From assembly GCF_000243155.2 (NCBI RefSeq), contig NC_018017.1, positions 1,736,001 through 1,800,000 of the forward strand: a DNA stretch of 64,000 bases, in the 5' to 3' direction. The translations under genes and the position numbers were made by a program. The notes under the pieces were generated by a model. That model had not been told where the DNA came from. It saw only the letters and a list, made by a program, of their open reading frames with translations, and did no database searches. The DNA comes from Desulfitobacterium dehalogenans ATCC 51507 (GTDB lineage: Bacteria > Bacillota > Desulfitobacteriia > Desulfitobacteriales > Desulfitobacteriaceae). This document shows, piece after piece, positions 28,069 to 32,174 of the stretch; the first letter of the stretch is position 1, and every line of letters begins with the position of its first letter.

Positions 28069-29550
28069 GTGAATTTTTTCAAAAAAGCCCCCTGTGAAGA
28101 AGCCATATGTGTTATTAAGAGCGTAGAAGACAGGATGAAAGGGATAAAGGTTGATCTTCCGAATGTGGAGTACCCCATTCACCAAAACCTTGTGACAATC
28201 TTTGAAAAACTTCTATCCAGTGAAGAGCAGATGTCCAGAAGCTCGAAAAAAATGATTGGGCTGACTTCAGCTTTAAGCAATTTTGATGTGGAGATGACTC
28301 ACTCTTCCAACAAACTGGTGGAATTCGCCAGAGAGATGTCAACTATCAGTGAATCCAATCTGGCAATCGTCGAAGAGATCAGCGCCAGCATGAGTGAAGT
28401 GAACAACTCCATCAGCTACACTTCTGATGTAATGAACAATCTTCAGGAATCCTCCAAGGAACTTGTCCTGAAAAATGACGAAGGAATTACCCGGATTAAG
28501 GAAATCGATGTGCTGAAAAACGAGGTCTCCAAGGATGCCGCGTTAATGAGCGAACAAATCAGGGTCCTGGTGGAGATGGCGGCAAAAGTCAATGAGATTG
28601 TGGACGGTGTGGAGAATATCGCTAATCAGACCAACCTGCTGGCCTTAAATGCCGCCATCGAGGCAGCTCGGGCCGGGGAAGCGGGAAGAGGCTTTGCTGT
28701 CGTAGCGGAAGAAGTCAGAAAGCTGGCGGATAGCACCAAAACCAGCCTGGGGGATATGCGTTCCTTTGTGAATAACATTCAACAGGCAGCGGTAAGCGGG
28801 CAGGCGAGCATGGAAAACACCATGAGCTCCACCGGCAAGATGCATTCCGAATTGGATATGATATCCAAGACCATCATCGAAAATGTGTCCATGTTAAAGA
28901 ACACTATCAATGATGTTGACCTGATCACAGAATCACTGGGAAATATCAAAGAATCTGCATACCAGATTAATCAGGCCATGGAGGCATCGGCTCAGGATGC
29001 TGAAAAGCTCACGATTATGACTCAGAGGATTCAGGATGATGCGACTCAAAGCGCCGACAACGCCAAAGAGATAGCACGGATTGATGATGAACTCAGTGAG
29101 CTTGTAAGAGAAATGATCACTGCCCTGAACGGGGGCAAGAATGCTATATCCAATCAGGAACTGCTGGAGAATATCACCAAGGCTAAGGCGGCTCATTCCA
29201 ACTGGATTAAAAATCTGAACAGAATCGTAGAGGAAATGACAACCTATCCTTTGCAAACCAACTCCAAGAAATGCGCCTTCGGTCATTTTTATCATTCCAT
29301 GGATGTTGCCGGAACCGTTTTGGAAGAAACCTGGCAAGCCATCGATCATGTTCATGACGAACTGCACTCCAACGGCAGCAAGGTCATCGAGGCCGTCAAT
29401 AAAAATAAACCGGAATTGGCCAGGGAACTGTTTTTACATACGAAAGAGCTATCTCAGGATATTTTCGCCAGATTGGATGAAGTCAGCCATGTCATAGAAG
29501 ACAGCAGCGCTCAAGGGGTGGAGATCTTGAGAACCAGCAAGGCGAGCTGA
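28069..29550 (+). CDS. Soluble methyl-accepting chemotaxis protein with C-terminal CZB zinc-binding domain
   Basis: 493 residues from GTG behind AAGGAGGGAG. There is no membrane segment, so it is a cytoplasmic chemoreceptor. The signalling hairpin tip is present ([28 protein letters not shown], within residues about 184-215). The C-terminal 110 residues form a chemoreceptor zinc-binding domain: [26 protein letters not shown] and LFLHTKELS give the His/Cys set. In other bacteria CZB senses zinc or hypochlorous acid. It stands alone, away from che genes. Confidence 0.9.
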
Positions 29551-29571
29551 GATAGCATTCGTCTCTCTCAT

Positions 29572-29743
29572 CTGGTGCGAACCTGTAGTGAACATGAAAA
29601 TGCCGGGGGATTCGCCCGCGAAATGAGAAGAAAATTGTTGAAATGCAGAAGATATAGTGGGTTAAGATTCGGTCATTGGGTAGAATAGTTTGAAAAAGTA
29701 AACAAAAATGCGTCTATCGGATGATTTTTGTTTACTTTTTGTT
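29572..29743 (+). promoter_or_regulatory. Type I-C-like CRISPR leader
   Basis: The stretch contains a hairpin-prone GGTGCGAACC...GGGGGATTCGC segment near its start, which I associate from memory with leaders of type I-C arrays, and ends in an AT-rich TTTGTTTACTTTTTGTT directly abutting the single repeat. The orientation (leader left of repeat) fits. Confidence 0.55.
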
Positions 29744-29775
29744 GTCGCTCCCTGTATGGGAGCGTGGATTGAAAT
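29744..29775 (+). CRISPR. Single type I-C-like CRISPR repeat, no spacer array
   Basis: The 32-base unit begins GTCGCTCCC and ends GTGGATTGAAAT, with an internal GCTCCC/GGGAGC stem, matching the type I-C repeat architecture. Only one copy is visible; no second repeat follows at a spacer distance and no cas genes are in the window. It may be a naive or collapsed array served by cas genes elsewhere. Confidence 0.75.
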
Positions 29776-29794
29776 AGAGAAGGAAATGGGAGAG

Positions 29795-29854
29795 CCACCA
29801 GGGAGAGATAGCAAAATCTTCAACGTTGAAGATTTTGCTATCTCTCCCTGGTGG
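29795..29854. repeat. Perfect 60-bp palindrome without loop
   Basis: 29795-29824 is the exact reverse complement of 29825-29854, centred on CAACGTTG. It begins 19 bases after the CRISPR repeat and is not followed by a T-run. Such long perfect palindromes are rare and unstable in bacterial DNA. Confidence 0.95.
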
Positions 29855-29899
29855 GAACGCGGCTAACTGGGATCAAAGCTGCTAAAAGCGAATCTCAGA

Positions 29900-29977
29900 T
29901 CAGAATACAAGGCCTAAAGCAATTAAAATGAGGATGGAAATGGCAATTATCGCTATACCAGCTCCGCATAAAAACAT
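29900..29977 (-). CDS. 25-residue hydrophobic peptide
   Basis: A minus-strand frame starting with ATG behind AAAGGGGG (8 bases spacing) encodes MFLCGAGIAI followed by an Ile/Leu-rich single membrane helix ending in GLVF. The strong ribosome site makes it a credible gene although it is too short for routine gene finders. It resembles in size and character the tiny membrane peptides of sporulating Firmicutes such as YjcZ, but no family can be assigned with confidence. Confidence 0.55.
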   Translation of the reverse strand: MFLCGAGIAIIAISILILIALGLVF

Positions 29978-30057
29978 AAATTCAACCCCCTTTAGTTTAT
30001 ATATCATCATATGCAAAAAATATTTTTATGGGATATTATGGTAAAGATGGAGGGTTT

Positions 30058-30083
30058 AAAAGAGCGTTTAAACGCTCTTTTTT
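30058..30083 (+). terminator. Palindromic intrinsic terminator
   Basis: AAAAGAGCGTT and AACGCTCTTTT form a near-loopless stem followed by T residues. It could end a transcript coming through the CRISPR leader, repeat and palindrome. Confidence 0.75.
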
Positions 30084-30201
30084 CTTTATTTCTCACGATG
30101 TGTCACCATTCGTGAATTTTTAACTTTTCCGTAAGAATTTTTAAGGTTTTTGTAAAGCACTACAACTCAAAACTTGGTAAGGTGAAGAGGAAGAAATAGC
30201 T

Positions 30202-30252
30202 ATGACGGCAAGATCCGGAGCCTGGCACAAGTGGAGAGTGAAGATGAAATGA
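30202..30252 (+). CDS. Possible 16-residue leader peptide coupled to the acyltransferase gene
   Basis: ATG at 30202 with GAGGAAG upstream opens a 16-codon frame whose TGA overlaps the acyltransferase ATG (ATGA at 30249-30252). The peptide is basic with two Trp. Overlap and ribosome site suggest translational coupling; no attenuator hairpin was identified. Confidence 0.35.
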   Translation: MTARSGAWHKWRVKMK

Positions 30253-32174
30253 ATTGCAGCACAAAAACGAATCAATTGTATGAACAGCCGAACCGACCGC
30301 AAAGGGGGAGGAGAGTACGGGCGCATTCCAGCGGCTATATGCCGGGCTTGGACGGCCTGAGGGCTTTGGCGGTGTTTGCCGTGATTGCCTACCATCTCAA
30401 TGTATCCTGGGCGCCGGGAGGACTTTTAGGGGTAACTTTGTTCTTTGTGCTGTCCGGGTATTTAATCACCAATATTCTCCTGAAACAATGGGATGGCACC
30501 GGAAGGATTGACTTGAAAGATTTTTGGCTGCGCCGGGCCCGACGGCTACTGCCCGCTGTTTTTGTAATGCTGGCGGGGGTAATGCTCTGGATGATGCTTT
30601 GGGCTCCGGAACGACTGGCAGCCTTGAAGGGAGAAGCCCTGGCCGCGGTATTCTATATCAGTAACTGGTATCTGATCTTTCATCAGGTCTCCTACTTTGA
30701 AAGCTTCGGCCCTCCGTCTCCCTTGGGGCATCTCTGGTCTTTGGCGGTAGAAGAACAGTTCTATGTTATCTGGCCCCTCCTTTTGGGACTGGGACTGAGC
30801 CGGATCCGGCAACGCAAATGGCTGACCGTGGGAACAATTGCTGTTACATTGGCATCGGCTGCGGCCATGGCCTTGATCTATATACCGGGTCAGGATCCCA
30901 GCCGGATCTATTATGGAACGGACACTCGGGCGTTCTCTTTGCTGGTGGGAGCAGTTCTAGCTATGGCTTGGCCCAGCGGGAAGATGGCCGGGGAACTCTC
31001 CGGCTCAAAAAGATGGGTTCTTGATGGGGCAGGCATTCTGGGGCTATTGGTGGTGCTGTTGATGATTGGGAAAACCAACCAATACCAGGCCTTCCTCTAT
31101 CAGGGCGGACTCTTGCTCTTCTCTGTTGCCGCGGCTGTTTTGGTGGCCGTTCTGGCCCACCCGTCCAGTTTTCTGGGCCGGTTCTTCAGCTGGGGACCCT
31201 TGCGCTGGCTGGGAGAGTGTTCCTACGGAATTTATCTGTGGCATTATCCCGTCATCATCCTGACCAATCCCGTTGTGAATACGGGAGGCTTGGATCTTTC
31301 CCGTACCCTCTGGCAAATCGGGTTAAGCATTATTCTGGCCGCCCTGTCCCGCTACTTCATTGAGGACCCCATCCGGTACGGAAGGCGGAGACGGGGGCGG
31401 AGGCGGACACCGGTTCTTCAGTGGTGGCAAAGACCATTGGGTGTCGGCGCCAAAATTTCTCTCAGTATAATGCTGATGGCTGTGCTGTTGTTTATAACTC
31501 CCGCTTGTGTTGCTGATAACTCCGGCAATGAGGGTGCGGGAATTTCAGCAAAAGCTATAACGGAGAACCATGAGGCAACAGAACAAACACAGACTCAGAA
31601 TGAAAATGCAAATGAAAATGAAAATGCAAATGAAAATGTGAATAAACAAGAAGATGAAACCCAAGAGACGGAGCAGAAAGACAATGCCGTCAAGGGGGAC
31701 ACTGCCGGGAATGATATTACAGTCATCGGCGATTCCGTCATGATTAATGTAGCACCTGTTTTACAGGAACGGCTTAAGGGGGTTGTCGTCGATGCCCAAC
31801 TAGGAAGACAGATGTATCAGGCCCCGGAGATTATTGCCGGGCTTCAGAAAGAGGGCAAGCTGGGGAAAACCGTGATTATTCAATTGGGAACGAACGGTTC
31901 CTTCAGCGAAAAACAACTCAAGCAAACTCTCGACTCCCTGCAAGGAAGTCCCGAGATCCTGCTGATCAATTCCCGGGTCCCCAAGCCTTGGGAAGGAGAG
32001 GTAAATGAGACTCTCAAAAGAGTAGCCCAGACTTACCCCAAGACCAAACTGATCGATTGGTATTCAACAAGCAAGGGCCATAACGATTACTTCTACTCCG
32101 ACGGAGTTCATCTGACCCAGGCTGGGGTGGAAGCCTACGGAGAGATGCTCATCAACGCCTTATCTCCCAAATAA
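30249..32174 (+). CDS. Membrane O-acyltransferase (acyltransferase 3) with C-terminal SGNH domain, OatA-like
   Basis: 641 residues. After a basic N-terminus, YMPGLDGLRALAVFAVIAYHL begins the integral membrane acyltransferase-3 domain (about ten helices, to about residue 385). A low-complexity Asn/Glu linker (residues about 445-470, from 6-bp DNA repeats near 31599-31640) connects to an extracytoplasmic SGNH hydrolase-like domain with ITVIGDSVM, LGTNG and DGVHLT catalytic blocks. This layout is that of OatA/YrhL enzymes that O-acetylate cell-wall polymers, for example for lysozyme resistance. Start ATG 30249 has GGAGAG upstream; GTG 30231 is an alternative. Confidence 0.88.
   Translation: MNCSTKTNQLYEQPNRPQRGRRVRAHSSGYMPGLDGLRALAVFAVIAYHLNVSWAPGGLLGVTLFFVLSGYLITNILLKQWDGTGRIDLKDFWLRRARRLLPAVFVMLAGVMLWMMLWAPERLAALKGEALAAVFYISNWYLIFHQVSYFESFGPPSPLGHLWSLAVEEQFYVIWPLLLGLGLSRIRQRKWLTVGTIAVTLASAAAMALIYIPGQDPSRIYYGTDTRAFSLLVGAVLAMAWPSGKMAGELSGSKRWVLDGAGILGLLVVLLMIGKTNQYQAFLYQGGLLLFSVAAAVLVAVLAHPSSFLGRFFSWGPLRWLGECSYGIYLWHYPVIILTNPVVNTGGLDLSRTLWQIGLSIILAALSRYFIEDPIRYGRRRRGRRRTPVLQWWQRPLGVGAKISLSIMLMAVLLFITPACVADNSGNEGAGISAKAITENHEATEQTQTQNENANENENANENVNKQEDETQETEQKDNAVKGDTAGNDITVIGDSVMINVAPVLQERLKGVVVDAQLGRQMYQAPEIIAGLQKEGKLGKTVIIQLGTNGSFSEKQLKQTLDSLQGSPEILLINSRVPKPWEGEVNETLKRVAQTYPKTKLIDWYSTSKGHNDYFYSDGVHLTQAGVEAYGEMLINALSPK

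Follow-up and report, generated by a model that had tools for sequence, protein, structure and literature searches.

CRISPR arrays that lack accompanying cas genes, known as orphan arrays, have been described in E. coli (type I-F) and in Lactobacillus acidophilus NCFM (PMC8616872, PMC6990116). Such arrays are taken to indicate degeneration (PMC8616872), and self-targeting is linked to the deletion of cas genes (PMC6990116). Solitary repeat units and RNA anti-CRISPRs, in which a single repeat lies outside an array, are described from viruses and proviruses (PMC10651486, PMC8616872). For the genus considered here, one report gives Desulfitobacterium hafniense PCE-S, DCB-2 and Y51 five CRISPR regions each, close together and with cas genes between them, in wording that leaves the type unnamed and covers 'all Desulfitobacterium spp. 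genomes' (PMC4511579). The genome analyzed here does not fit that wording.

We analyzed a window of 64,000 nucleotides (G000:C1:1736001-1800000) from the genome of Desulfitobacterium dehalogenans ATCC 51507, which is a single contig of 4,321,753 bases and is 100% complete. The locus lies in the 680 bases of intergenic DNA between a chemotaxis gene and an acyltransferase-like gene (Table 1). Very probably it is an inert, cas-less remnant of a collapsed type I-C array, consisting of the leader, one repeat and most of one near-self spacer. Loci of this kind are already known. This one is a new example as far as the literature searched shows; no published description of it was found in that literature, and most subscription papers lay outside its scope.

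The locus resembles orphan arrays in that repeat and spacer are present, cas genes were not found, and the spacer that survives is related to DNA of the genome or of relatives (PMC8616872, PMC6990116). It differs from them in that there is a single repeat, the truncated spacer is bounded by a palindrome instead of a second repeat, and the target is the fic gene of a mobile element and not a cas gene. With the type I-C loci of Desulfitobacterium it shares the repeat type and, in a same-genus draft genome of 5.6 Mb (G003), a homologous leader at the same chromosomal place; whereas those loci have long arrays and cas genes, here there is one repeat, and no cas gene was found. The single repeat outside an array is also a feature of solitary repeat units, but these are placed in viruses and proviruses (PMC10651486, PMC8616872), whereas the present locus is chromosomal and has a full-length leader and a spacer remnant. 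Solitary repeat units are carried by mobile elements and have no leader; the flanks of this locus are common to G003, and the leader is present.

Table 1. Features of the locus and its flanks (positions within the window)
Feature	Position	Strand	Basis
Upstream flank: methyl-accepting chemotaxis gene with C-terminal CZB domain	28069..29550	+	Pfam MCPsignal and CZB
Type I-C CRISPR leader, almost intact	about 29568..29743	+	Alignment to relatives' leaders
Inverted repeat AAAAAGTAAACAAAAAT / ATTTTTGTTTACTTTTT in leader, adjoining the CRISPR repeat	29693..29740	+	
Single type I-C repeat, 32 bases, GTCGCTCCCTGTATGGGAGCGTGGATTGAAAT	29744..29775	+	Pattern searches of window, genome and family
Putative spacer remnant matching fic gene	29776..29805	+	Own-genome match and TTC PAM
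Perfect palindrome of 60 bases, loop-free; arms 29795-29824 and 29825-29854	29795..29854	.	
Segment common to G003 (75% identity)	29902..30051	.	Sequence comparison
Downstream flank: gene of a membrane protein, acyltransferase-like (label from sequence)	30231..32174	+	Orthologue in G003

A leader that abuts the repeat had been proposed in a sequence-only reading of this DNA, and the comparison with relatives bore this out. The stretch 29568-29775 aligned at 70-74% with the leader and first repeat of relatives at at least 13 places in at least seven genomes (G001, G007, G009, G018, G032, G035 and G040 among the matches listed), and at 67-69% at three more places among the matches listed. Since the leaders of relatives align over nearly all of this stretch, the leader is real and nearly complete. 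We aligned 16 leaders, a selection of the matching places from which the truncated leader of G012 was left out. At one of the 33 columns that are invariant in the other 15, the window leader deviates; this is a single-base deletion in the motif TTCGCACC, at a base that all 15 others keep. The 15 other leaders deviate at 0-5 columns. Leader decay is therefore weak as proof that the locus is dead, and we rejected it as such: decay is hardly visible because the leader is nearly intact.

The leader is identical to that of G003 at 121/149 bases (81%). The identity of the adjacent gene to its G003 counterpart was lower, 61% at 165 fourfold-degenerate sites. Since the leader is more conserved than the neighboring silent sites, constraint probably acted on it over most of the period after the two lineages separated, and the loss was thus probably late. 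The conservation of the leader, its single deviating column and an intact repeat stem would also be expected of a naive or dormant array that is still competent, with the leader and one repeat serving as a landing site for cas genes that arrive later or act in trans. The sequence-only reading had listed a naive array among its possibilities. Against a competent array, the one change in the leader deletes the very base retained in the 15 others, and searches of the genome for Cas1, run with positive controls, found none (see below). The presence of a spacer remnant means that the array is not naive. We consider a competent array improbable.

The repeat fits the I-C kind in its length of 32 bases and in its sequence (GTCGC...GTGGATTGAAAT). 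At up to three mismatches it is the only copy in the window (0 in 100 shuffles), and at the same threshold it occurs once in the complete 4.32-Mb genome, in accordance with the single repeat first noticed. Of the 45 family genomes, 20 contain the repeat-type pattern at up to three mismatches, and 15 of these 20 hold at least 10 copies. The assignment to type I-C, as the sequence-only reading had it, is supported by the repeat and leader and by the cas operon that G003 has at the corresponding place. Its further statement that no other repeat follows at a spacer distance also stands, as the window contains no second intact repeat there. The best gapped partial match (29841-29862) had a score of 11, which 1.4% of 420 control windows also reached; more than half of it lies within the right arm of the palindrome, and its spacing of ~97 does not suit one repeat-spacer unit. 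We rejected it as a second repeat. An array requires at least two repeats that enclose a spacer, and the locus has one repeat and a spacer that is left unclosed.

The original description of the unit as having no spacers was not upheld. When the 150 bases after the repeat were searched against the genome itself, positions 29776-29805 matched G000:C1:3197314-3197343 (minus strand) at 27/30 bases with an E value of 1.6e-4. This site lies in a fic gene and is the one match that the start of the 150-base query has elsewhere in the genome. The match starts immediately behind the repeat. The target is bordered on its 5' side by TTC, the I-C PAM (PMC8406640), so that an own-genome match and the correct PAM, which together define self-targeting, are both present. 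The mismatches fall at spacer positions 3, 6 and 21 and are all silent, both sequences encoding REGNGRATRE. The spacer is in the same sense as the fic message. Beyond base 30 the match stops, with agreement at 0/6 of spacer bases 31-36. The spacers of relatives are 32-38 bases long (n=168).

Apart from the locus itself, the spacer pattern at up to three mismatches matched one of the 73 genomes of the order, namely its own. None of the 72 other genomes matched at that threshold, and the reversed-pattern control matched 0/73. The null distribution was obtained on four stretches of the own genome (138,008 bases, both strands), one of them chosen for holding the target, and not on the whole genome; there, 400 random 30-mers from the window gave 7 mismatches at best and 200 shuffles of the spacer gave 8 at best, as compared with 3 for the spacer. 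Phage and plasmid searches with bases 29776-29824 gave no match at E ≤10, and a degenerate fic pattern had no exact match in viral contigs.

On sequence grounds, the start at the repeat edge, the PAM, the silent mismatches and the restriction of the match to the own genome indicate that 29776-29805 is a spacer remnant. The silent mismatches suggest, moreover, that the spacer was derived from a relative of the resident element. The same bases could instead be trailer DNA that resembles fic by chance. The match extends over 30 bases with 3 mismatches, fewer bases than in any spacer measured in relatives, and it is not closed by a repeat on its downstream side, as would be expected of trailer DNA. 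However, chance would then have to supply a start exactly at the repeat edge, a TTC on the correct side and mismatches that are all silent, in a sequence with 0 matches in the 72 other genomes and 0 in the reversed controls, and the random 30-mers came no closer than stated above. We regard trailer DNA as extremely improbable.

The palindrome begins within the spacer and takes up the position of the following repeat: given that the spacers of relatives are 32-38 bases long, it stands where that repeat should begin. The palindrome is probably younger than the spacer, as the final 11 bases that match fic lie in its left arm. A folding energy of -83.1 kcal/mol (z -9.6) was calculated for the stretch 29730-29900. 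No full copy of the palindrome occurs elsewhere in the genome. An inverted duplication or a template switch would, we infer, account for its form, though not for its central bases. The center resembles a near-palindrome at G000:C1:2182552-2182578 (25/27), and a second spacer within the palindrome was considered on this account. We rejected it, since both sequences are palindromic, which inflates the score; no open reading frame of at least 60 aa is listed at the 2182552 site. A search of Rfam gave 11 matches at E ≤1, all of them far below the gathering scores, and 7 of these were miRNA families on the palindrome hairpin. The whole 680-base intergenic region had no match in the plasmid search.

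Two other features of the intergenic region were observed. A minus-strand open reading frame of 25 hydrophobic residues (MFLCGAGIAIIAISILILIALGLVF) runs from 29977 down to 29900; a purine-rich stretch precedes its start, and it overlaps the segment that is 75% identical in G003. A simple consensus scan found one terminator-like site, at 30058-30081. The same kind of scan gave no sigma-70-like promoter match across 29500-30300.

The target gene encodes a Fic protein (PF02661, 8.9e-15) with the motif HPFREGNGR, and its neighbors encode ParA, ParB, RadC and a resolvase. About 14 kb from fic, the gene of a large serine recombinase continues in frame into the C-terminus of a magnesium-chelatase gene, which we take to be of the ComM type. 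Integration of an element in that gene would give this arrangement. On the side of fic opposite to the recombinase, ~23 kb away, there is a type II/IV secretion ATPase. The part of the element that was followed lies at about 3.17-3.214 Mb of G000:C1 and also carries a cytosine methylase.

Cas proteins were searched for in the genome by profile or by query. The Cas1 profile (PF01867) had no match in the own genome, whereas 9/14 control genomes and 22/45 family genomes matched. Two of the 20 repeat-bearing genomes are without Cas1, namely the own genome and G027 (91% complete). Cas1 is likewise missing from two other genomes of the genus, G004 and G005, of which G005 is 82% complete. The Cas3 protein of G003, used as a query, had no match in the own genome and matched G003 itself. 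Cas5d is the protein that processes I-C repeats. Its profile (PF09704) had no match in the own genome and was found in G003 and in 6/14 controls. Cas7 of G003 as query also gave no match in the own genome, in a search without a positive control. Thus the genes that a functional type I-C system would need (cas1, cas3, cas5d and cas7) were not found alongside the one repeat. This absence covers the four named proteins; other CRISPR types (e.g. III or V without Cas1) lie outside the search. Since the Cas proteins were not found, the locus should be inert.

These searches bear on the proposal of the sequence-only reading that a solitary repeat has a regulatory job. In such a working unit, the repeat and a partial anti-fic guide would act in the manner of crRNA-resembling antitoxins or RNA anti-CRISPRs. 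A guide that matches fic next to a PAM and is followed by a very stable hairpin would suit this role. Cas proteins that could use the guide were not found, neither Cas5d nor the effector proteins Cas7 and Cas3, and the promoter scan described above gave no match. The locus is also chromosomal and stands behind a long leader, unlike the solitary repeat units of mobile elements. Because guide and fic message are alike in sense, antisense action without Cas proteins is unlikely for a transcript driven from the leader. We consider a working regulatory unit exceedingly unlikely. There is, in our estimation, also very little probability that the relic still acts by way of a crRNA-like RNA with a 5' handle derived from the repeat, ~19-30 anti-fic guide bases and the palindrome as a 3' hairpin that replaces the lost repeat. 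If it did, type I-C cas genes re-entering the cell would be turned on the resident fic gene, by silencing or killing, and the active relic would be a lock against regaining the immune system.

The collapsed-array interpretation draws on the equivalent locus of G003, located on G003:C6. Its first part contains the orthologue of the chemotaxis gene, a leader (leader 1, 81% identical to that of the window), a run of 1830 N and a degraded repeat at 68,347. The array behind leader 1 is unreadable, as the 1830 N begin within the end of the leader. TetR-like, alcohol-dehydrogenase-like and aldehyde-dehydrogenase-like genes (labels from sequence) come next, followed by the segment equivalent to window positions 29902-30051. 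After this shared segment lies a cas operon of the order Cas5c-Cas8c-Cas7-Cas3-Cas4-Cas1, then a second leader (leader 2) with 11 repeats. Two minus-strand genes (PadR-like and membrane protein; labels from sequence) separate this array from the acyltransferase-like gene. The window keeps both ends and the middle segment of the G003 order and is without the intervening blocks. Because both ends and the middle segment are common to the two genomes, the leader probably predates their split. CRISPR parts without cognate cas genes thus stand where a relative has a full system, as is characteristic of a relic. Of the possibilities first raised, the remains of a collapsed array agrees with the leader, repeat and spacer remnant found where the sister species has a leader, an I-C operon and an array.

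The comparison also allows a different history, in which no cas operon ever stood here in the present lineage: the ancestral array would have been served in trans, and G003 would have gained the operon later. The array linked to the operon in G003 (behind leader 2) has a repeat that differs from the GTCGCTCCC-type repeat of the window, and the lack of Cas1 in G004 and G005 also suits such a history. Against it, the G003 operon sits between the same flanks as the window leader. We hold a later gain of the operon to be possible though doubtful. It would alter the history of the locus and not its present state, and it overlaps with the explanation by a collapsed array.

We propose the following course of events for a collapsed array. 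The common ancestor would have had an array at this site. In the present lineage, the cas genes and the greater part of the array would have been lost. The spacer would have been taken from the fic gene of a related mobile element, as all three mismatches are synonymous. The palindrome would have arisen later, by inverted duplication or template switch, and would have removed the next repeat. Without Cas proteins, the locus would neither acquire spacers nor interfere. Either the loss of immunity may have let the element settle, or self-targeting by the spacer may have selected for the loss of the cas genes.

Lone or reduced repeats were also observed at other places. In G003, a single variant repeat (...GTCTGTGGATTGAAAT) lies near position 72320 of contig C6, directly upstream of cas5c. 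Lone repeats that adjoin cas operons can yield RNAs that regulate Cas proteins. Another place in this genome, G003:C19:70172-70203 (L062 8173-8204), holds a solitary I-C-like repeat (GTCGCTCCCTTCGTGAGAGCGTGGATTTAAAT) for which no leader was noticed, at the end of a small zinc-ribbon-like open reading frame (weak Pfam matches below the cut-offs); the region also contains HTH, excisionase-like and HD-domain dGTPase-like genes. This repeat may be a solitary repeat unit (RNA anti-CRISPR) carried by a mobile element. A similar dGTPase-like gene adjoins the integrase of the element that carries fic in the present genome. Among viral contigs, one I-C repeat pattern had a single match, in the IMG/VR contig IMGVR_UViG_3300029775_000009 (L076 889-920), where the lone repeat lies in a 36-kb contig and adjoins an HTH-like open reading frame (label from sequence). 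Three further units also look like relics. In G012:C22 (L059 5883-5982), two degraded repeats follow the end of a leader in a genome without Cas1, and G027:C42 (L060 6022-6053) has a lone repeat with no leader noticed, likewise in a genome without Cas1. G035:C1 (L061 6345-6443) carries a small array with a leader away from the Cas1 genes of that genome. Finally, a search of genome contigs with the C-terminus of the chemotaxis protein found four loci in other organisms, two of them in Syntrophomonas sp. UBA5288 (73%); none of these four has a leader and repeat, apart from one 19-base chance match.

The locus indicates that a leader-repeat unit that appears to be without spacers can conceal a spacer after loss of the following repeat. 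Array-finding programs that require two repeats would probably miss this locus. It is a clear example of a chromosome from which a CRISPR system is absent although the leader has stayed. The loss of immunity would be linked either to the establishment of an element of the kind recorded in the spacer or to escape from self-targeting.
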